In this document: one piece after another, positions 12,630-44,057 of the stretch | Layout of the letters: each line of letters starts with the position of its first letter | How positions within the stretch are numbered: the first letter of the stretch is position 1 | Origin: a virus | Length of the DNA stretch: 44,057 nt | Direction: 5' to 3' (one strand) | IMG/VR virus record: IMGVR_UViG_3300005600_000047 | Coordinates: 1-44,057 of that record | Notes under the pieces: model-generated | Told to the model about the DNA's origin: nothing | The model's database searches: none | Seen by the model: only the letters and a program-made list of their open reading frames with translations | Made by a program: the position numbers and the translations under genes

Positions 12630-13200
12630 CGCATTCAAAGAGACGGCGGAGACGATCAGCCTGCACGGCCTCGGCTTCCTCCAGGTGAAGCTGGGAGGTA
12701 ACCAGCGACTGCACGTGTGGCACCCCGGGCTTCCCCGGCGAGCCTGCTTCGAGCACTCCGCCATTCACGACCACCGGTTCGGCTTCAACAGCACGGTGCT
12801 CGTCGGGATGCAGGTCAATGATCTCTATGCGGTCTACGAGCCTGGAGTGGCCAACGTGCCCGACACGCTCGAGCCGACCCACCAGGCCTACCTCCACGAG
12901 GGGGAGCGCTCCCAGTTCGGCAACCGACCGTGGATCCCACGCGAGCGCGTCTGGGTCCCGCACGTCAACACAGAATTGGTGGAGGCCGGCAAGACCTACA
13001 GGATGCTGCCCCACGTATTCCACGCGACGAGGGCCGGCGGAGACGGCCGGGTCGCGACGCTGATGACGAAGATCGAGGAGACGTCCACGGGAGCGAGGTC
13101 ACTGTGCACGATCGGCGTAGAGCCCGACGTGGACTTCGACCGGCGCCAGCTGACAGAGGATGAGATGTGGGATGTGGTTCGGGACGTACTCGGAGGCTGA
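12619..13200 (+). CDS. Cupin-like protein, unknown substrate
   Basis: A 193-residue protein with the double-stranded beta-helix pattern of cupin / cysteine-dioxygenase-like phage proteins: HSAIHDHRFGFNSTVLVGMQ (metal-ligand type H.H) near residues 50-70 and a later histidine pair in RMLPHVFHATRAGG near 129-142. The C-terminus is charged and helical. Such proteins occur in phages near replication genes, and their substrates are unknown. The metal-binding histidines are intact, so an active enzyme or a ligand sensor is possible. The start ATG 12619 overlaps the previous gene and has GGGAGG upstream. Confidence 0.65.
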   Translation: MDTSAFKETAETISLHGLGFLQVKLGGNQRLHVWHPGLPRRACFEHSAIHDHRFGFNSTVLVGMQVNDLYAVYEPGVANVPDTLEPTHQAYLHEGERSQFGNRPWIPRERVWVPHVNTELVEAGKTYRMLPHVFHATRAGGDGRVATLMTKIEETSTGARSLCTIGVEPDVDFDRRQLTEDEMWDVVRDVLGG

Positions 13201-13646: not shown

Positions 13647-13743
13647 CGAGGAAGACATGCGGATAATCAGACGGGGCTCCGGCCGCGTCAGAGCAATGGT
13701 GCTCGGAGTAGCACCCAGACAGGAGACAGACAGATGCATGTGA
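13513..13743 (+). CDS. Hypothetical protein (basic, WIxD-type small phage protein)
   Basis: A 76-residue ORF when started at GTG 13513, which has AGGAG 4 nt upstream. The reading frame is open back to 13429, but the upstream part reads as low-quality sequence. It contains LLWKRYKESCALWGFPQATV, then EEFVRWIGDEEDMRIIRRGS and GRVRAMVLGV, the look of a small compact phage protein of unknown family. Third positions are strongly G/C as in neighbouring genes. It overlaps the exonuclease start at its 3' end and the 13413-13646 frame at its 5' end. Confidence 0.6.
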   Translation: MTSELLIAPEFATPLRLLWKRYKESCALWGFPQATVEEFVRWIGDEEDMRIIRRGSGRVRAMVLGVAPRQETDRCM

Positions 13744-14285
13744 TGATCGACCTGGAGACATTGGGCACCCGGCCCGGCTCCGCCATCGCCCAGATCGGGG
13801 CGGTACTCTTCGAGCCTGTGTACGGGGGCAAAATCCTGAACGGCAAGGCCTTCAACCAATACATTCGGCCCGACGATCGGGTCAACTTTGACACCGATAC
13901 GATCGCGTGGTGGCTTCAACAGTCGCCTGACGGTCGCAAGCGACTGGCTGAGGGCATGTCCCAGGGCGTGACCGAGGCCGAGGCGCTTCAGGAGCTAGCT
14001 CGTTGGCCCATGCTCACCCACAACCTGACCTGGGAGGCAGTCGGCGGCGTCTGGGCGCACGGCCCGACCTTCGACGTCAACCTCCTACACGAGGCATTCG
14101 CCCGCAACGGCCTGGAGCCGGCGTGGTCCTACCGCGCACCGAGAGACACCCGCACCCTCTACTTCCTGGCCAATGGCGGTCAGCCGCCTGAGATCGATTG
14201 GACCGGCTTCGTCGAGCACGACGCCAAGGACGACGCGATCGCCCAGGCCATGCAGGTCCAGATAGCGATGGGGATGATGAGATGA
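13734..14285 (+). CDS. DEDDh 3'-5' exonuclease (Rv2179c/ExoX-like)
   Basis: A 183-residue RNase H-fold exonuclease of the short DEDDh group. The four acidic residues and the catalytic His are visible: Asp6 and Glu8 in MIDLETLG, Asp114 in HGPTFDVNLL, and His162/Asp167 in EHDAKDDA. Length matches the Rv2179c-like 3'-5' exoribonuclease/exonuclease family found in many phages. It may trim RNA or DNA ends during replication. ACAGGAGACAGACAG precedes ATG 13734. It overlaps the next gene by 4 nt (ATGA). Confidence 0.85.
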   Translation: MHVMIDLETLGTRPGSAIAQIGAVLFEPVYGGKILNGKAFNQYIRPDDRVNFDTDTIAWWLQQSPDGRKRLAEGMSQGVTEAEALQELARWPMLTHNLTWEAVGGVWAHGPTFDVNLLHEAFARNGLEPAWSYRAPRDTRTLYFLANGGQPPEIDWTGFVEHDAKDDAIAQAMQVQIAMGMMR

Positions 14286-14794
14286 CCACCATAGCGTACC
14301 GTGACGGAGTGATGGCCTCGGACAGTCGGGCCTCGGACCTCCACTACAAGCATGTCACCATGTGCCAGAAGGTGTTCCGCCTCAACAGCGGCGCCCTCCT
14401 GGGCACGGCCGGCGACTGTGACGCTCGCGCTCTCATGGTCATGCTGGACAATGTGACGAACAGCGAGAGCCTACCGACCAGGCTCGAGCTCAAGGAGCTC
14501 GAGATGAGCTTAGAGGGGCTGCTCGTGCTCCCGAACAAGGAAGTGTGGCAGATCGACATCGAGTGGTCAGAGCAGGAGCATGAGGGCTTCTGGGACGCTC
14601 AGGCGTGGCAGATCGAGGACGACGTCGCCGCGGTCGGATCCGGCGCGGCCTTCGCGCTCGGAGCCATGGGCCACGGCGCGGATCCGATCGAGGCCATCAG
14701 GTCAGCGGTCCGGTTCGACCTGTTCAGCTGCGCGCCGCTCCAATGTCTCACCCTGGGTGACGGTACCACTGAGCCAAAACGGCTCAAGAAGTAA
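14282..14794 (+). CDS. Proteasome/HslV-like Ntn hydrolase
   Basis: A 170-residue protein that begins M-TTIAYRDGVMASDSR. The second residue is Thr, which becomes N-terminal after Met removal and is the nucleophile in proteasome beta/HslV proteins. The supporting residues are also in place: Asp14 (MASDSR, equivalent to Asp17 of HslV) and Lys30 (MCQKVFRL, equivalent to Lys33), followed by the Gly-rich LLGTAGDCDAR. The size is that of a minimal beta-type subunit. Similar genes are known in some phages, but their targets are not. It overlaps the exonuclease gene by ATGA. Peptidase activity is inferred from the residues; no ATPase partner is seen in the window. Confidence 0.8.
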   Translation: MTTIAYRDGVMASDSRASDLHYKHVTMCQKVFRLNSGALLGTAGDCDARALMVMLDNVTNSESLPTRLELKELEMSLEGLLVLPNKEVWQIDIEWSEQEHEGFWDAQAWQIEDDVAAVGSGAAFALGAMGHGADPIEAIRSAVRFDLFSCAPLQCLTLGDGTTEPKRLKK

Positions 14795-15029: not shown

Positions 15030-15614
15030 ATGGCTGAAGTCAAACGTTACCAAACGCCGGTATTCCGGCTCTCATTCCCCAACCTGTTCACAGCCCAGTC
15101 GTTCGACGGCGGAGAACCCAAATACGGGTGCTCGGCGGTCTTCACTCCTGCGGACTTCAACGATCGCGAGAAGAAGCTCTGGTCGGCCCTCATGAAGGCC
15201 GCTGACGAAGAGTGTCGCGGTCGGTTCCGGAAAGGGGTCAAAGAGATGCCGGCGAACTTCAAGTTCGGCATGCGCGATGGGGCCGAGAAGGCCGACCTGG
15301 AGGGCTACGGCGACGGGACCAAGTTCTGTTCCCTGTCCACCAAGATGCGCCCAGGGGTGATCGATCGCAACAAAGACAAAGTCGGCCCGGAAGAAGGCAA
15401 CGACGATGAGATCTATCCCGGCTGTTACTGCCGGGCCACGGTCACGATCTACTCCTACGACAACAAGTCGAAGGGCATCGCGTTCGGCCTGATGAACGTG
15501 CAGAAGGTCCGAGACGGCGAGCGACTGGACAGTCGCACTGACGCTGCCGAGGACTTCGACGATGACCTCCCTGAGGAGGAACTCGACGACGCAACCGAGG
15601 ACTTCCTGGACTAA
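15030..15614 (+). CDS. DUF2815 ssDNA-binding protein
   Basis: A 194-residue protein that matches the DUF2815 phage single-stranded DNA-binding family: TPVFRLSFPNLFTAQSF at the N-terminus, EPKYGCSAVFTPADF, the middle YGDGTKFCSLSTKMRPG, and IYPGCYCRATVTIYSYDNKS near residues 133-152. The C-terminal 25 residues are an acidic tail containing DFDDDLPEEEL and ending EDFLD, like the protein-interaction tip of SSB. It would coat ssDNA at the fork and recruit partners. Its gene sits upstream of the polymerase with a good Shine-Dalgarno (AAAGGAAGATAGAG) and is followed by a strong terminator. Confidence 0.9.
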   Translation: MAEVKRYQTPVFRLSFPNLFTAQSFDGGEPKYGCSAVFTPADFNDREKKLWSALMKAADEECRGRFRKGVKEMPANFKFGMRDGAEKADLEGYGDGTKFCSLSTKMRPGVIDRNKDKVGPEEGNDDEIYPGCYCRATVTIYSYDNKSKGIAFGLMNVQKVRDGERLDSRTDAAEDFDDDLPEEELDDATEDFLD

Positions 15615-15640: not shown

Positions 15641-15677
15641 GAAGCCGGCGCTCCCCCTAGCGCCGGCTTCGCTTTTT
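15641..15677 (+). terminator. Rho-independent terminator
   Basis: A perfect 12-bp stem (GAAGCCGGCGCT / AGCGCCGGCTTC) with loop CCCCCT, followed by GCTTTTT. It ends the transcript carrying the DUF2815 gene, 27 nt after its stop codon, and is intrinsically strong. Confidence 0.92.
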
Positions 15678-15725: not shown

Positions 15726-15866
15726 ATGGCCAAGCGAACAGCAGACCTCCTCGAGCTCGTACGCTCCGAGGGCTGGACAGCCCGGGTGAAAGCAGGCTAC
15801 AACACCCTCAGCCAAACCGAGCGAGCCGTCCTCAAGGACATGATGGAGTTGCCGCTCTTTCGTTAA
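15726..15866 (+). CDS. Small hypothetical protein (46 aa)
   Basis: A short ORF with AAGGAGACAGAC immediately upstream of ATG 15726. It reads MAKRTADLLELVRSEGWTAR and ends MMELPLFR. Predicted entirely helical, basic at the N-terminus, with no recognised family. It lies between the strong terminator and the tmRNA gene, so it probably has its own promoter in the short AT-richer gap at 15678-15714 (a CATAAT box is present, without a convincing -35). Its transcript may read into the tmRNA. Confidence 0.6.
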   Translation: MAKRTADLLELVRSEGWTARVKAGYNTLSQTERAVLKDMMELPLFR

Positions 15867-15876
15867 CACTGGGTTA

Positions 15877-15970
15877 CCCTACGACTACTCGCAGCGTAGG
15901 GTGTCAGCGTGTTTGATGAAATCAGACTGAAACGTTCAGGACGCGGGGGCAGTACCCGCCGCCTCCACCA
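15877..15970 (+). ncRNA. ssrA: tmRNA acceptor piece of a permuted two-piece ssrA gene
   Basis: The 3' acceptor part of a tmRNA. It ends CCGCCGCCTCCACCA at 15970. Its T-arm analogue is a GCGGG/CCCGC stem around a 7-nt GGCAGTA loop. The 3' strand GCCTCC pairs with the GGGGGC that opens the coding piece 78 nt downstream, giving a six-pair acceptor stem with G-T at the third pair, the alanine identity element. A 7-bp hairpin (CCCTACG at 15877-15883 with CGTAGGG at 15895-15901) marks the probable 5' part; the true processed end is uncertain. The gene order (acceptor first, coding second) is that of alphaproteobacterial two-piece tmRNAs. The GGCAGTA loop differs from the usual TTCRANT and, as I recall, is typical of that lineage. 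Confidence 0.88.
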
Positions 15971-16047
15971 TCTACACATGGCGCAGTCGTGACGGCGGCT
16001 GTAGGTGCCGTTGAACCTGCTCTTGTGAGTGTCCGTGTGTAGTTGAT
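15971..16047 (+). other. Intervening segment of the permuted tmRNA precursor
   Basis: These 77 nt join the acceptor 3' end to the coding 5' end and would be removed by processing. CTACACATGG just after the CCA pairs with CCGTGTGTAG just before the coding piece (10 pairs, one G-T), extending the acceptor stem so that the precursor folds as one tRNA-like domain. This is the expected structure for permuted ssrA. Confidence 0.8.
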
Positions 16048-16220
16048 GGGGGCGAAATAGGATCGACTGGCGCGTAGGCGAGATGGAGAGCACGGGATGA
16101 CCGCCTGATAGGTCAACAACCATAACTGCAAACGACAACTTCGAGCAGTCTGCGGAATTCGCCATCGCGGCGTAACCGAACGGGGTGCAGGGGACCGACC
16201 TGGCAACAGAAAGTCCCCAT
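16048..16220 (+). ncRNA. ssrA: tmRNA coding piece with tag reading frame
   Basis: Starts GGGGGCGAAATAGGATCGAC, the tmRNA 5' signature (acceptor strand plus D-analogue GGATCGAC). After a structured stretch the resume codon GCA lies at 16128 in the context AACTGCAAACGAC, as in other tmRNAs. The tag is ANDNFEQSAEFAIAA followed by TAA at 16173-16175, in the style of alphaproteobacterial tags (A)ANDN...AA. The 3' part closes with a GGGGAC/GTCCCC stem at 16190-16195 and 16213-16218, taken as the end. Ala-charged two-piece tmRNA with SmpB rescues stalled ribosomes and tags the product for ClpXP-type proteolysis. No SmpB gene is in the window, so host SmpB is presumed. Confidence 0.9.
16128..16175 (+). 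other. tmRNA tag reading frame (ANDNFEQSAEFAIAA)
   Basis: Fifteen codons plus TAA, read from resume codon GCA. With the alanine from the charged tmRNA, the added peptide is A-ANDNFEQSAEFAIAA. ANDN at the start is the SspB/SmpB-lineage pattern. The C-terminal Ala-Ala is what ClpX recognises. The ending I-A-A replaces the usual L-A-A or V-A-A. Confidence 0.85.
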
Positions 16221-16267
16221 GTTTGTACAGGCAGGCGTAGGGGGGTCCGCCTTGAAAAGGCCCTCCA

Positions 16268-16680: not shown

Positions 16681-17016
16681 ATGAAAACGCTCTTACTTGC
16701 CTATGGCATCATCTTCTTGCTGGTCCTGACATTCGCTGTCGAGGCCCAGGGACAGACCCGTGAACAGTACCCTCAAGTGCGAGATAGGCACAGATGCGAG
16801 CGTCCAGTCCATGTGCAACCGCGACAATATCCTCGGGTATACACAAACAGGAGAGAAGACAGTGAGCATCGGTACCAACCACGCCGCACGAGGGCAACTG
16901 AGGTCCTTTGTCGAGCGCGTCGAGCGTCTGCAGACAGAGATCGACGATCTCAATGGGGACAAGAAGGAAGTCTTCGCAGAGGCGAAAGCCAACGGCTACG
17001 ACGTCCCAACCCTTAA
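16681..17016 (+). CDS. Doubtful ORF: signal peptide followed by out-of-character tail
   Basis: The ORF begins right after the 16678 stop with MKTLLLAYGIIFLLVLTFAV, a convincing signal peptide (cleavage near EAQG). Beyond about residue 26 it becomes Arg-rich with poor codon bias and shares DNA with the GapR-like frame from 16862 on. In the GapR frame the stretch 16760-16861 is open and reads better. This could be a short secreted peptide whose 3' half has decayed, or the site of a frameshift. The signal peptide is believable, but the full 111 residues are not. Confidence 0.3.
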   Translation: MKTLLLAYGIIFLLVLTFAVEAQGQTREQYPQVRDRHRCERPVHVQPRQYPRVYTNRREDSEHRYQPRRTRATEVLCRARRASADRDRRSQWGQEGSLRRGESQRLRRPNP

Positions 17017-17143
17017 GAAGGTAATCCAGCGACGCAAGGCGGACAAGAGTGCAGTCGAGGAGCAGGACGCCCTGCTTGACCTGTACGAAGGCGCCCTCCT
17101 GGGTATCTCCCAAGACGACAAAGACGACGACTTCCTTGATTGA
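16862..17143 (+). CDS. GapR/DUF2312-like DNA-binding protein
   Basis: A 93-residue protein when started at GTG 16862 (AGGAG 8 nt upstream). It matches the alphaproteobacterial DUF2312/GapR family along its length: RGQLRSFVERVERLQTEIDD, then KKEVFAEAKANGYDVPTLKK and VIQRRKADKSAVEEQDALLD, the coiled coil plus short helices by which GapR dimers clamp DNA. GapR binds overtwisted, AT-rich DNA ahead of forks and polymerases and assists topoisomerases. A fork-associated role for the phage copy is inferred. Unlike the host family it ends with an acidic DDKDDDFLD tail. The polymerase gene starts within its stop codon (TGATG), so the two are translationally coupled. An alternative GTG at 16760 would add 34 residues. 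Confidence 0.85.
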   Translation: MSIGTNHAARGQLRSFVERVERLQTEIDDLNGDKKEVFAEAKANGYDVPTLKKVIQRRKADKSAVEEQDALLDLYEGALLGISQDDKDDDFLD

Positions 17144-19506
17144 TGGAAGAACGCGCCACCATAGACTTTGAGACCAGGTCCGTATGCGACCTGAAGAAGC
17201 ACGGCTCGTGGATCTACTCCAAGCACCCGACGACGCAGGCGATGTGCCTCTCGTACCGGCTTCCGTTCTGGCCTGAGGGAAAGGTCGGACGCTGGAACAT
17301 GGCGCATCCACACTGCGGGATCGAAGAGGCCCCTCCCCCACAAGACCTATTCGACTGGATCGAAGCAGGCGGCTTAGTTGAAGCCCACAACGCATTCTTC
17401 GAGAGGGTCATCTGGCTCAACGTCATGGTGGCCCGACACGGCTGGCCCGAGATGCCTCCCCGTCAGTGGCGGTGCTCGGCGGCGAAGGCGAGCATGTGTT
17501 CGCTGCCTCGAGACCTCGAGAACGCCGTCCGGGCCATGGGCCTGCCGATCGAGAAGGATATGGAAGGCCGCAAGCTGATGCTCAAGCTGTGCAAGCCCAG
17601 GCAACCACGCAAGGCGGAGATCCAGGCCTGGATGGAGGCAGAGGGCCTCTCCGGGGACTATCGCAAGTTCAAGCCCAAATTCGTCGAGGCCAATGACCCT
17701 CTATGGCATGAGGAAGAGGCCGACCTCCGGCGCAACTGGGTATACTGTGACCGCGACGTACTGGCCGAGGAGGCGCTCAGCGAGGCAGTTCCGGACCTAC
17801 CTCCCCAGGAGCTGAGGCTCTGGCAGATCGACCAGGACATGAATGAGCGGGGAGTGAGGTTCGACCTCGATCTCGCCCACGCCGCCCTGGAGATGGCCGC
17901 AAACGCCAAGAAGACTTTGAACCGTGAGCTGGAGGAGATGACAGGCATCTCGGCAGCGACGAAGCGCGCCCAGGTCAAGAAGTGGCTGGTCGACAACGAG
18001 GACCTGGACCTGCCCGACACCAAGGCGGAGACCGTCGAATGGTACCTCAAGCGGGAAGAGATGAGTGGCAGGGCGCGACGGGTCGTCGAGATCCTCAAGC
18101 AGGTGAACCGCACCTCGACCCGCAAGTACCAAGCCATCATCGACAAGACGGATCCGGACGATTGGCGTGCCAGGGACCTGCTCATGTATCACGGAGCAGG
18201 CACCGGCCGCTGGACAGGCAAAGGCATCCAGGTCCAGAACCTGCCGAGGGGAAACGTCAAGGACATGGACACGGCCGCGATCGACATCAAGGACGGCCAC
18301 CTCGGCTGGGTCGAAGCCATGTACGGGGACCCGATAGAGTTCCTCTCCGGCGCCCTGCGTGGCACGATCATCCCCGAAGAAGACCATGACCTGATCGTGG
18401 CGGACTACTCCGCGATCGAGGCCAGATGCGTACTGTGGGAAGCCGGCGCCGAGGCGGCGCTCGACGTCTTCCGGTCTGGCGGGGACATCTACTGCGACAT
18501 GGCCACGGGCATCTATGGCTATGAGGTCCGGAAGAAGGAGCACCCAGCAGAGCGCCAGTTCGGCAAGCAGGCCATCCTGGGCCTCGGGTACGGCATGGGC
18601 TTCCTGACGTTCCTGCTCACCTGCCGCAAGTACAACATCCACTTCGGCGTCGAGCAGGTCAAGGGCATCCTGAAGGACCGCTTCGAGAAGTACGTGGAAT
18701 GGGTCGACGACTACCTGTTCCCCAAGCCGTCGGGTGACGCCAAGCGCGATGCTAGCAAGCGGCGACAGGCGAGCAAGGTCCGGCGCCAGCTGACCGACGC
18801 ACGCGAGACGCCCAAGGATATTCTCCACGAACTGGCCCTCATGAAGTATACGGTCGACGTCTACCGGACCCGCTATCCTGAGGTCAAGCAGATGTGGAAA
18901 GACCAGGAAGAGGCCGCGATGGCCGCGGTCCGCGAATGGGAGGCCATCCTGGGAGCCGCCAGGAAAGAGGCGGAAGACGACTGGGCTCTCAGCGGTGAGC
19001 CGATCGACTTCGGCCTCATGCCCTGGGAGAAGGCCGAGTTCAAAGACGCGATCGACGGCCCAGTCAAAGTGGCCGGCAAGATCAAGTGGTATGTCAAGGG
19101 GGGCTTCCTGTGTTGCGAGCTGCCGTCAGGCCGACTGGTGCGCTACAGAGACCCGCACATAAAGCCGACAAAGACGAGCTGGGGTGAGACCAAGGACGGT
19201 CTCCGCTACATGAGTGTGGTGACCGGAGGCAAGTGGGCCAGGACCGGCACATACGGCGGGAAGCTGGTGGAGAACATCACTCAGGCCGTGGCCCGGGACT
19301 TCATGTCGGACGCCACCATCCGGACGGTAGACGAGGGAACGCCCTACCGCGTCATCATGTCAGTCCACGATGAATTGGTGGCGGAGGTGCACAGAGACGA
19401 GGGGTCCCGTCAAGACTTTGAAGAGGTAATGTCAGAGGCACTCCCGTGGGGAGACGGGTGTCCGATCACGGCAGAGGCCGAACGGTACGCCCGCTATAGA
19501 AAGTAG
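17143..19506 (+). CDS. Family A DNA polymerase
   Basis: A 787-residue replicative polymerase. The N-terminal 3'-5' proofreading exonuclease starts with ATIDFETRS (Asp/Glu pair). The polymerase core shows motif A LIVADYSAIEARC (Asp near residue 421), motif B with QFGKQAILGLGYGMGF (O-helix) and motif C IMSVHDELVAEV (His-Asp-Glu near 742-744). There is no 5' nuclease domain, as usual for phage versions. ATG 17143 overlaps the GapR-like stop codon; an alternative TTG at 17140 adds one residue. Together with the DUF2815 protein, primase-helicase and SNF2 helicase it forms a self-sufficient replication set. Confidence 0.95.
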   Translation: MEERATIDFETRSVCDLKKHGSWIYSKHPTTQAMCLSYRLPFWPEGKVGRWNMAHPHCGIEEAPPPQDLFDWIEAGGLVEAHNAFFERVIWLNVMVARHGWPEMPPRQWRCSAAKASMCSLPRDLENAVRAMGLPIEKDMEGRKLMLKLCKPRQPRKAEIQAWMEAEGLSGDYRKFKPKFVEANDPLWHEEEADLRRNWVYCDRDVLAEEALSEAVPDLPPQELRLWQIDQDMNERGVRFDLDLAHAALEMAANAKKTLNRELEEMTGISAATKRAQVKKWLVDNEDLDLPDTKAETVEWYLKREEMSGRARRVVEILKQVNRTSTRKYQAIIDKTDPDDWRARDLLMYHGAGTGRWTGKGIQVQNLPRGNVKDMDTAAIDIKDGHLGWVEAMYGDPIEFLSGALRGTIIPEEDHDLIVADYSAIEARCVLWEAGAEAALDVFRSGGDIYCDMATGIYGYEVRKKEHPAERQFGKQAILGLGYGMGFLTFLLTCRKYNIHFGVEQVKGILKDRFEKYVEWVDDYLFPKPSGDAKRDASKRRQASKVRRQLTDARETPKDILHELALMKYTVDVYRTRYPEVKQMWKDQEEAAMAAVREWEAILGAARKEAEDDWALSGEPIDFGLMPWEKAEFKDAIDGPVKVAGKIKWYVKGGFLCCELPSGRLVRYRDPHIKPTKTSWGETKDGLRYMSVVTGGKWARTGTYGGKLVENITQAVARDFMSDATIRTVDEGTPYRVIMSVHDELVAEVHRDEGSRQDFEEVMSEALPWGDGCPITAEAERYARYRK

Positions 19507-40837: not shown

Positions 40838-43800
40838 TTATACTCCTACGTCTACCACACCGGTCACGCTCGGGAAGCCCCTGCCCACCTGGGCCGAGAC
40901 CTGGTAGACCTTGAAGTGCAGGAACTGCTTGGTCCCCTCATCAATCTCGAGCGTCACAGTATCCATGGCGACGTTCAGTGCGGTGCCGTTGTTCCTTGTG
41001 CCGTGCAGCTCGACCCGGAGCTGCCGTGCGTTGTTCGGTGCCGTCCCGGTTGTGGTGATCTGCGTCCAGCTGCCGGAGGTCGGTGCGGTGTCCATGCCGC
41101 TGTCTGTCTGCAGCACATTGTCATCCGCATCTAGCCAGACCAGGTCGATCCGGCCCGTGTCCGTGTCCGTCGTGTCGCTGTTGATGTACACTCCGCCGCG
41201 GATCTGCAGATTGCCCTGGTCGATGATGTCCGCCATCACCGAGATGTCAATCGTCTGGTTCACCTCGACCGCAGCCTGATCGGTCGCCTCAGCGAAGGAC
41301 ATGTAGTTGTCCCCGTCCTGGGCGCCGATTATGCTGCCGTCAGCTCCGGTGAGGATCGCCACGGCGCTCGAGCCGGTCTCCACGGTCCAGCCGGCGAAAG
41401 CTCCGCCCGCATTCGTGGTCAGCGTCTCGAAGCTGGCGTTCGTGAGCAGGTTCGCCGTCTCATCCTGGAAGCCTGTCCAGGAGGAGCTGTCCGTCGTCTG
41501 GTCGCCGGATGAATAGGTCGCCGCGTTCGACGCCAAACCGGTATAGGTACGAACCAGCGTTCCACCTGGTGTGTATATTTCGATCTCGTACTCCTCACTG
41601 TCCTCGGCCAGGGGCACGTCGTCCGTGCCATCTACCAGACCGAAGCCGCCGATGCGTGTCTGCCGCACCCACTCCAGGACCACGTCGGATCCCCAGGTGC
41701 CCGAGGTCAGATCGAGCTGCACAGGACGGTAGGGCATGAGATCTCGGCCCGGTGAGGCCTTGGAGGTATTGTCCGCGTCCTCAAACATGGTGCCGGACGT
41801 GACGGCCCGATAGTACAGGGTCGTGTCCACCTCGGCCAGGGAGAGGTTGACCTGATCCGCGGGCGCATCTTCTAGCAGGAGGAATATATCTCCCACCGCG
41901 TGGATGCCCGTGAAGCTCTCTGTGCCTCTGCGTCCCCGCAGCAGGACGGACAGGGTGTAGGACCCGTCCGTATTGAGGCTAGCCGTCTGGAACTGGAAGA
42001 TCTCCACCCGTCCGTCGGCCGAGATGATCGCGGCGGCGTTGCCGCCGTTGAGCATCTCTGTGCTGGTGATGCTGTCGAGGCCTGCGTCCGTATTCGTGCT
42101 GAGGAACACGGTGACGGTGTTGGTATTGTCGGTCTGGTACGGGAGGTCCGTGTCGCCGAGAGCGGTTGAGCAGGTGCCCCAGGTCATCTCTGCGACGTTC
42201 GATCCTGCTTCATCCCATGAGACGTTGTCACTGGACCGGAAGAGGGTCGCGGCGTTCCAGCCCGGTTGGCCATACCCGCCCATGAAGGTATAGACCTTTG
42301 AGTTGACGCGGCTCACGTCGTGGCTATCCCGCAGCAGAGGGCTGCAGAGCACGATCAGCTTCGTCGTCAGCTCGGACAGGAATTCCTGTACCAGCGGGCC
42401 GGTGCCACTATCTCCTGTGACCGTAGAGGTGTACTGCGCGGCATCTTCAGCCAGCGCTGAGAGGTCCATGGCGAAGTCAAGCCCAATGTCCGTCTGCGTC
42501 AGCCGCACCCGATAGACAGTCCCGCTATCCAGCGTTATTGTGACCACGTCATTCGGATCAAGGGAGATAAATTCCCACGACAGACGCGATGCGATCGAGA
42601 CACGCTCCGTCCAGGAGGAGATGAGCGCCTTCTCCACAGTCTGCTTCGCGGTATCGCTGTCAAGAACGATAGGAACTGGCAGGTTGATCGCGTTATCAGA
42701 GTATGAGGTCTGGAAGGCCGATGGACCGACGACCCGCTGTGAACTGTGCGCCTGCTGCTGGTAGTCGTTCTCCGACGACATATAGGTGAGCGTGAACCGA
42801 CGAGGCAGCTCCACTTCCTGGATGCGGATCTCACGGATGAACTCCCCCGTCTCGTTATCGATCGCAGCCAGATCGTCCTGCACGATACTCGCCGATGAGG
42901 ACTTGCCATCACGGAGAGTGAACTTCAGGGTGTAGTCACTCTCCACGCCGTCAAAGAAGTATATGGACGCGAGCTGCTCGATCGCCGAACGCGCGGTGAC
43001 TTGCCGGCCGATCGTATATCCTGGCACGGTGAGAGCCGCCAGCTCCGTCACGTCAATGTCAGACGCGGCTAGTCCCACCTCGGCGCAGATGTCGGTCACG
43101 ACGTCAGACAGGGCGTCGCCCTGGCCATCTCCCCGGAAGAAGAGCCACTTGACTATATCACTGGGAGCGTCATAGCCGATGAAGGTATTCGTCTTACCGT
43201 CCCACCAGCCTGCTCCAGAGGAGGTATAGCCTCTAGTCCAGTCTGAGGCCGTGAATACGATCTCGCCGTCAGACGTGCGGAGCGCGAAGCTGTCAACGCC
43301 CGACATCTGACCATAGGTACCGTTCACGATCCGCCCGTGGTTCCAGCCCATTATACTATTGCGTATTGGGACCCCCGTATCGGTGATCTCGGTACGCCAG
43401 AGGATCGACCCGTCGGACGGGTCGATCTTCAGCATCCAGTACTCATTGAGATCGCTGCCGGCCTGGGCCTGGATCATGATTGTGTCGTCGGTCTCGTCGT
43501 AGATCGGGCCGAGGCAGTTGCCAAGCTCCACCTCTCCCGGGATTATATCATTCGGTGAGAGGGTGACCACGTTTGCCGCGGAGGTGCCAGTGAAGGTGAG
43601 GGAATTCGCATCATACGTGGCCCCATTGTTCACCGTGAGCTTGAAGATCCGGACGTCACCGGTCTCTAGAGTGGCGTAGCGCGGCCCCACCATGACGTAC
43701 GCCTCACCGAAGGTGGTACCAGTCGCGCCAGCACACGTGCCTTTGACCCGGCTCTCAGATATGGTGAAGCCTGCTGTCTCGTTGTCCCAGACGTAGTTCA

Positions 43801-44057
43801 TCTGACCATTCGTGACATCCAGTAGGCCAACGGAATTGAACAGTGAGCCATGCAGGTAGTACACCTGACCACCTCCCGTCTTAACCCAACTACACTTGCC
43901 GAGGTGGCTGGCGGCCTCAAACCCTGTTGGGCTCGTGCCCAGGTCATTGCTCGTAACCCCGAAGGTGCCGACAGGCTGCAGTGAGTTCGGGTCGACGGCG
44001 ATGAGTGGCTGAGTATTACCCCCAGTCGTGCTGAAGATGACATAGCCATTCGGCATG
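40838..44057 (-). CDS. Large tail protein, GTA/phage-tail_3 type (partial)
   Basis: At least 1072 residues, cut by the right edge of the window; the ATG at 44056 need not be the true start. The first 330 residues form a PQQ/WD-like repeat region (VYYLHGSLFNSV, GSDLNEYWMLKIDPSDGSIL). The middle (about 340-560) matches the phage-tail_3/GTA tail protein: VARSAIEQLASIYFFDG-like, then RRFTLTYMSSENDYQQQ and IVLDSDTAKQTVEKALISSW. The C-terminus has FN3-like and carbohydrate-binding-like beta domains (SYTLSVLLRGRRGTESFTG; NASFETLTTNAGGAFAGWTV). It is probably the baseplate hub/host-contact protein. Confidence 0.8.
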   Translation of the reverse strand, partial: MPNGYVIFSTTGGNTQPLIAVDPNSLQPVGTFGVTSNDLGTSPTGFEAASHLGKCSWVKTGGGQVYYLHGSLFNSVGLLDVTNGQMNYVWDNETAGFTISESRVKGTCAGATGTTFGEAYVMVGPRYATLETGDVRIFKLTVNNGATYDANSLTFTGTSAANVVTLSPNDIIPGEVELGNCLGPIYDETDDTIMIQAQAGSDLNEYWMLKIDPSDGSILWRTEITDTGVPIRNSIMGWNHGRIVNGTYGQMSGVDSFALRTSDGEIVFTASDWTRGYTSSGAGWWDGKTNTFIGYDAPSDIVKWLFFRGDGQGDALSDVVTDICAEVGLAASDIDVTELAALTVPGYTIGRQVTARSAIEQLASIYFFDGVESDYTLKFTLRDGKSSSASIVQDDLAAIDNETGEFIREIRIQEVELPRRFTLTYMSSENDYQQQAHSSQRVVGPSAFQTSYSDNAINLPVPIVLDSDTAKQTVEKALISSWTERVSIASRLSWEFISLDPNDVVTITLDSGTVYRVRLTQTDIGLDFAMDLSALAEDAAQYTSTVTGDSGTGPLVQEFLSELTTKLIVLCSPLLRDSHDVSRVNSKVYTFMGGYGQPGWNAATLFRSSDNVSWDEAGSNVAEMTWGTCSTALGDTDLPYQTDNTNTVTVFLSTNTDAGLDSITSTEMLNGGNAAAIISADGRVEIFQFQTASLNTDGSYTLSVLLRGRRGTESFTGIHAVGDIFLLLEDAPADQVNLSLAEVDTTLYYRAVTSGTMFEDADNTSKASPGRDLMPYRPVQLDLTSGTWGSDVVLEWVRQTRIGGFGLVDGTDDVPLAEDSEEYEIEIYTPGGTLVRTYTGLASNAATYSSGDQTTDSSSWTGFQDETANLLTNASFETLTTNAGGAFAGWTVETGSSAVAILTGADGSIIGAQDGDNYMSFAEATDQAAVEVNQTIDISVMADIIDQGNLQIRGGVYINSDTTDTDTGRIDLVWLDADDNVLQTDSGMDTAPTSGSWTQITTTGTAPNNARQLRVELHGTRNNGTALNVAMDTVTLEIDEGTKQFLHFKVYQVSAQVGRGFPSVTGVVDVGV

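Follow-up and report, generated by a model that had tools for sequence, protein, structure and literature searches.

The 44,057-base IMG/VR virus record IMGVR_UViG_3300005600_000047, analysed over its whole length and referred to below as the window, contains a complete permuted gene for a two-piece tmRNA, and we think it probable that the product is a working tmRNA owned by the phage. A complete RNA of this kind had been proposed in a preliminary description made from the sequence alone, and the Rfam models and ARAGORN agree on it. The RF01849 (alpha_tmRNA) covariance model, suggested at that time as a check, gives a significant match in cmscan that extends across both pieces at 15859–16221 on the plus strand, covering the full model (1–355) with 122 bits and an E-value of 6.2e-33. 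RF04321 (tmRNA_permuted) matches 15908–16175 with 118.8 bits (E-value 9.3e-23). The gathering cut-offs are 50 and 47 bits respectively, the E-values exclude a chance match, and the tmRNA is the sole RNA feature of the window above the Rfam cut-offs. ARAGORN independently calls a permuted tmRNA at 15878–16266, with the tag ANDNFEQSAEFAIAA.

Direct reading of the sequence places the acceptor piece with its CCA first, then an intervening segment and then the coding piece, all on the plus strand. The acceptor piece (15878–15970; RF01849/RF04321 and ARAGORN, the start being an ARAGORN estimate) ends in a discriminator A and an encoded CCA. The intervening segment of 77 nt (15971–16047) is expected to be removed by tRNA-processing enzymes, the processing of two-piece tmRNA having been described (PMC3985003). 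The coding piece (16048–16221 by RF01849, 3′ end approximate) begins GGGGGCGAAATAGGATCGAC at 16048 and comprises the 5′ acceptor strand, a D-like arm, a P2 strand, PK1, the tag frame and PK2. The CCA end at 15970, the segment length and the coding start at 16048 had all been placed correctly to the base in the preliminary description, as had the G-T third acceptor pair and the tag frame.

In the cmscan alignment the T-arm (15943–15959) has a stem formed by 15943–15947 and 15955–15959 and the loop GGCAGTA, and the acceptor-piece strand of the P2 helix (15933–15939) is partnered by 16067–16072, with covariation in the viral copies. The 5′ strand of the 7-bp acceptor stem, read from the sequence, lies at 16048–16054; its third pair, 16050:15964, is the G3-U70 pair that serves as the AlaRS identity element. 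The ARAGORN tag frame (16128–16175) runs from a GCA resume codon to a TAA stop, so that resume codon, stop and hydrophobic -AA end are all present. Two pseudoknots flank the tag in two-piece tmRNA (PMC3985003). Here the predicted PK1 (16093–16114) pairs CGGG 16093–16096 with CCTG 16104–16107 and GACC 16099–16102 with GGTC 16111–16114, and PK2 (16183–16218), around CTGGCAACAGAA, pairs GGGT 16183–16186 with ACCT 16198–16201 and GGGGAC 16190–16195 with GTCCCC 16213–16218. The outer stem of PK2 shows covariation; its inner stem and PK1 are sequence readings.

A second assembly, IMGVR_UViG_3300010430_000120, overlaps window positions 12930–44057 at 99.9% identity and extends 13.2 kb beyond, so that the phage genome is at least 57 kb. 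Since this near-identical sister contig carries the same 408 bases at the tmRNA, with zero differences, the gene is not an assembly accident. Pfam and PHROGs identify a terminase large subunit, a Mu-type portal, a Prim-Pol primase, a DUF2800/Cas4-like nuclease, an Enc34-type ssDNA-binding protein, a family A DNA polymerase, a helicase, a thymidylate synthase and a ribonucleotide reductase in the window; the tmRNA is phage-encoded because terminase, portal, polymerase, primase and ssb genes share its contig. The tail protein at 40838–44056 contains a domain, PF23666, named for the Rhodobacter protein Rcc01698.

The gene lies inside a replication module, as first described. On its left flank is the ssDNA-binding protein gene (15030–15614, plus strand; PF10991, Enc34-like, Pfam/PHROGs), relatives of which occur in 7 of 7 records compared, and on its right flank the family A DNA polymerase gene (17140–19506, plus strand; PF00476), whose product is 62% identical to that of Ruegeria phage Tedan. 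The interval also holds an intrinsic-terminator-like hairpin between ssb and the tmRNA (15641–15670, plus strand; one found, 0.6 expected in shuffles), a putative 46-codon ORF read from the sequence just upstream of the tmRNA (15726–15866, plus strand) and, just before the polymerase, a gene for a GapR-like DNA-binding protein (16760–17143, plus strand; PF10073 in Pfam) that is likewise found in Tedan and the RDJL phages. No sigma-70-like promoter was found upstream of the tmRNA in a scan that covers alphaproteobacterial promoters poorly.

Among isolates, Tedan (62% and 60%) and Roseobacter phages RDJL 1, 2 and 6 come closest to the window phage in polymerase and terminase, and Rhodobacter phages RcSimone-Hastad and RcRudolph are also near in polymerase; a Rhodobacterales host is therefore likely. 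All of these phages share the ssb-polA interval, and in RcSimone-Hastad and RcRudolph it contains a permuted tmRNA. None was found in Tedan, RDJL 1, 2 and 6, Donnerlittchen or the contig IMGVR_UViG_3300027852_000064, and we conclude from its absence in the close relatives Tedan and RDJL 1, 2 and 6 that the tmRNA is dispensable in this lineage. The two Rhodobacter phages resemble the window phage in belonging to the same phage group, in the location of the gene and in its reduced coding piece; they differ in their tag, ANDNVRMDAQALAA, in neighbours encoding a HIRAN protein and a topoisomerase, and in having no HslV-like gene. The RcSimone-Hastad record has no annotation for the tmRNA, so that published Rhodobacter phages prove to carry an unnoticed two-piece tmRNA; RcSimone-Hastad and Rhodobacter capsulatus form a cultured pair in which phage tmRNA use could be tested directly. 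RCRUDOLPH_61 of RcRudolph looks like a spurious protein-coding annotation that covers the tmRNA as far as the tag stop; the loci of the two phages are L002 2930–3265 and L003 2821–3234.

Phage-borne permuted copies, for which a search had been proposed, were found among both isolates and IMG/VR contigs; besides the Rhodobacter pair, the isolates are Cp1R7A-A1, vB_EliS-L02, RcXuper, CcrSC, CcrColossus, DSS3_MAL1 and Tunturi_4. The view that two-piece tmRNAs are confined to bacterial chromosomes is contradicted by these isolates and by a 2022 study that reported a two-piece tmRNA in phage Melnitz and in which 53 of the 133 unique tmRNA structures counted across 402 phages were two-piece (PMC9004378). 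Two-piece tmRNA in viruses was thus known before, and the window adds another case, bringing a phage lineage of roughly 60 kb to the known carriers. Methylophilales phage Melnitz is similar in its permuted alpha-type gene, degradable -AA tag end, absence of SmpB and lack of known integration (PMC9004378), but it is a 141-kb marine myophage whose tmRNA gene contains a glutamine riboswitch, whereas the window has no other Rfam match. The tmRNAs of mycobacteriophages Bxz1 and Wildcat and of Bacillus phage G are also phage-carried, but they are one-piece and not permuted. Elsewhere, 79 unique bacteriophage tmRNA sequences have been listed (PMC11915505), and a tmRNA has been reported in sphingomonad phage Lacusarx (PMC5648845).

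We infer from the sequence that the window tmRNA would be expressed, processed and charged, would tag proteins and would benefit the phage. Host RNase P and the enzymes that act on tRNA 3′ ends would presumably release the acceptor and coding pieces from the precursor, and the acceptor stem and P2 would hold the two together. G3-U70 would allow host AlaRS to add alanine, and with host SmpB and EF-Tu the RNA would enter ribosomes that have stalled on broken mRNA. There ANDNFEQSAEFAIAA would be translated, a tag that by its -IAA end and its ANDNF start would suit degradation of the ClpXP/SspB type in the host. An ANDN start and an -AA end fit SspB/ClpX recognition in the alphaproteobacterial system. 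A search of 32 phage or virus records (13 + 19) found no SmpB, and for this reason we infer that the phage RNA relies on SmpB, AlaRS and proteases of the host. The phage would thus add an extra, phage-specified tmRNA to host SmpB, EF-Tu, AlaRS and proteases, the likely benefit being that ribosomes stay available and amino acids are recycled while infection floods the cell with truncated mRNA or host tmRNA is limiting. Trans-translation may be maintained or redirected in this way, as the preliminary description inferred. Maintenance of the hijacked machinery or help in recycling amino acids has been proposed as the role of phage tmRNA (PMC9004378), and in mycobacteriophage Wildcat no lytic gene is more highly expressed than the tmRNA, which stands 15-fold above the structural genes (PMC7474061).

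Evidence that phages keep two-piece tmRNAs in working order comes from covariation among the other viral copies, the window copy being matched by just its identical sister copy. In IMG/VR at least 120 rows matched GGRGGCGAAATAGGATCGAC, and at least 89 virus-borne copies, comprising isolates and IMG/VR contigs matching GGRGGCGAAATAGGATCGAC, are callable by ARAGORN. Among the matches listed, all five T-stem pairs are kept in 64 of 64 alignable distinct viral copies, the outer two through four pair types, and G3-U70 is kept in 59 of the 59 copies scored; ARAGORN and the search pattern in part select for the T-stem and acceptor pairs counted here, the G side of G3-U70 being fixed by the pattern in the IMG/VR copies. 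For P2, again among the matches listed, three of the six pairs scored are kept in 62–64 of the 64 copies, two of them through several pair types, and the innermost-scored wobble pair is kept in only 31. PK2 lies outside the search pattern. In 27 distinct viral copies among the matches listed its stem averages 6.67 bp, compared with 4.88 bp when the 3′ arms are swapped between viruses, and none of 500 shuffles was as good, a figure that is no strict probability because the copies are related. The tags themselves end in [LIV]AA in 58 of 60 distinct cases and start with ANDN or VNDN in 48 of 60 (both among the matches listed). Four IMG/VR contigs (L071, L083, L106 and L122) have a common permuted tmRNA whose tag, ANDNALSNVTFVDFSAPVTAVNEDFALAA, is unusually long at 29 residues.

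The Rhodobacter pair shows the same tendency at closer range. RcSimone-Hastad and RcRudolph have 82% ANI overall (PMC9753621), and their tmRNA genes are 94% identical; the two sequences agree at every base between the tag stop and a point just beyond PK2, where identity collapses, and the three changes in the tag are all synonymous, including that of the stop from TAA to TGA. At the sequence level, the pattern in this pair and in the other viral copies is the trace of selection on a working tmRNA.

These observations bear on the main rival explanation, that the RNA is a decoy which binds SmpB or ribosomes and inhibits host trans-translation instead of performing it. The TLD-only tmRNA-like RNA of phage DS6A does inhibit tmRNA when produced in E. 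coli (PMC11915505, PMC4131195), and host SmpB could be titrated, no SmpB having been found in the phage or virus records searched. A decoy needs no reading frame, however, and yet a degradable end is present in nearly all of the distinct viral tags among the matches listed (58/60), the tag changes in the Rhodobacter pair are synonymous only and PK2 is kept across viral copies; a decoy is therefore unlikely. Still less probable is a neutral passenger retained by chance in the window phage. Such an origin would accord with the presence of the tmRNA in only some members of the phage group, but it sits badly with compensatory evolution across viral copies and with a conservation that, in the Rhodobacter pair, stops at the predicted RNA end.

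In its gene order, tRNA-like domain, G3-U70 pair, D-like arm sequence, predicted PK1, tag and PK2 the window tmRNA corresponds with alphaproteobacterial ssrA (RF01849; for example Paracoccus, Sinorhizobium). It differs in lacking a segment of ∼40 nt that follows the tag in typical bacterial copies but is no defining trait, and in its RF01849 score of 122 bits, compared with 219–310 bits for seven typical bacterial copies (Sinorhizobium, Shinella, Paracoccus, Pseudorhodobacter, Bosea, Methylobacterium aquaticum and Acetobacter, all from plasmid-collection records). Fifty virus contigs tested, among the matches listed, score 82–148 bits, RcXuper, RcSimone-Hastad, RcRudolph, Cp1R7A-A1 and vB_EliS-L02 score 84–112 bits, and CcrSC and Tunturi_4 match RF04321 only, with 75.8 and 79.2 bits. 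The distance from the tag stop to the CAACAGAA motif of PK2 is 27 nt in the window and 64–67 nt in five bacterial copies; among the matches listed it is 21–37 nt in those viral copies that have a recognisable motif, and these lack the segment as well, many others giving no such motif. The missing segment looks like a hairpin, and its loss explains part of the score gap between viral and bacterial copies. This reduced, virus-type structure is the mildly new part of the result.

The same comparison weighs against a host gene fragment or an attachment-site remnant from a prophage junction. Although tmRNA genes are common integration sites (PMC11915505), and a complete ssrA might, as has been proposed, arrive by gene exchange with a temperate phage (PMC9004378), both pieces are complete here, phage replication genes stand on both flanks, the score falls well below the bacterial range, no copy compared exceeds 65% identity (138 columns), and two patterns from the window tag region have no match in the bacterial genome contigs searched. 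A search confined to the tyrosine type found no integrase in the window, the sister contig, RcSimone-Hastad or RcRudolph. We regard a host remnant as very improbable, and recent capture from a host is rejected on the score, the missing post-tag segment and the unmatched tag patterns. The preliminary description had taken the lack of an integrase to suggest use during infection; the absence of a tyrosine integrase from the window and its sister stands, and the evidence points to selection keeping such copies, but that absence alone is no proof of such use.

A broader reading, which we put forward tentatively and rate as doubtful, treats the permuted tmRNAs of viruses as a virus-type class of long standing, distinct from host ssrA, in which the coding piece is reduced and the tags are peculiar to the class. 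Its members would have been exchanged among phages and a few plasmids, Methylobacterium pMRAD01 being one, and tagging in an infected cell might then differ from host tagging in substrate or fate. The class is provisional because the chromosomal ssrA genes of SAR11, Rickettsiales and Caulobacterales lie outside the sample. A tree of tmRNAs gives the window copy no resolved place. The permuted tmRNA on plasmid pMRAD01 of Methylobacterium radiotolerans has the short, virus-like form (24 nt, 87 bits, tag ANDNVGMEMRLAA) and has relatives on other Methylobacterium plasmids.

Least probable of all is that the tag routes proteins to a phage HslV-like protease and not to host ClpXP: a gene for an HslV-like Ntn hydrolase (MTTIAYRDG...; 14282–14794, plus strand; phrog_1040, PF00227 just below cut-off) lies 1.1 kb upstream of the window tmRNA, Erythrobacter phage vB_EliS-L02 has one ∼0.5 kb downstream of its tmRNA, and Cp1R7A-A1, RcXuper, CcrSC, CcrColossus and DSS3_MAL1 carry both genes somewhere, but RcSimone-Hastad, RcRudolph, Melnitz and Tunturi_4 have the tmRNA without an HslV-like gene, the converse holds for RHph_TM30 and several gamma-phages, which encode HslV but no permuted tmRNA, and large genomes may simply be more likely to carry either gene. 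The HslV-like gene was found in none of 48 IMG/VR contigs searched among the matches listed, all chosen by the tmRNA pattern and many of them fragments; functional pairing as a general rule is rejected on this absence and is a weak lead only. A PDB sequence search with the HslV-like protein gave no match. Directly before its gene is one for an RNase T-like 3′-5′ exoribonuclease (13734–14285).

Two other phages show features of their own. In Mesorhizobium phage Cp1R7A-A1 a second, partial tmRNA candidate (24.9 bits) proved to be an ordinary tRNA, and a GOLLD RNA (L141 53–515; 193.5 bits), with a tRNA match inside, adjoins a tRNA array. In Tunturiibacter phage Tunturi_4, whose host is an acidobacterium, a permuted tmRNA encoding a 33-residue tag lies immediately beside the gene of a 115-aa protein with an RF-1 domain (PF00472; L166 1130–1982), similar in length to an ArfB-like rescue factor, so that two ribosome-rescue candidates adjoin.
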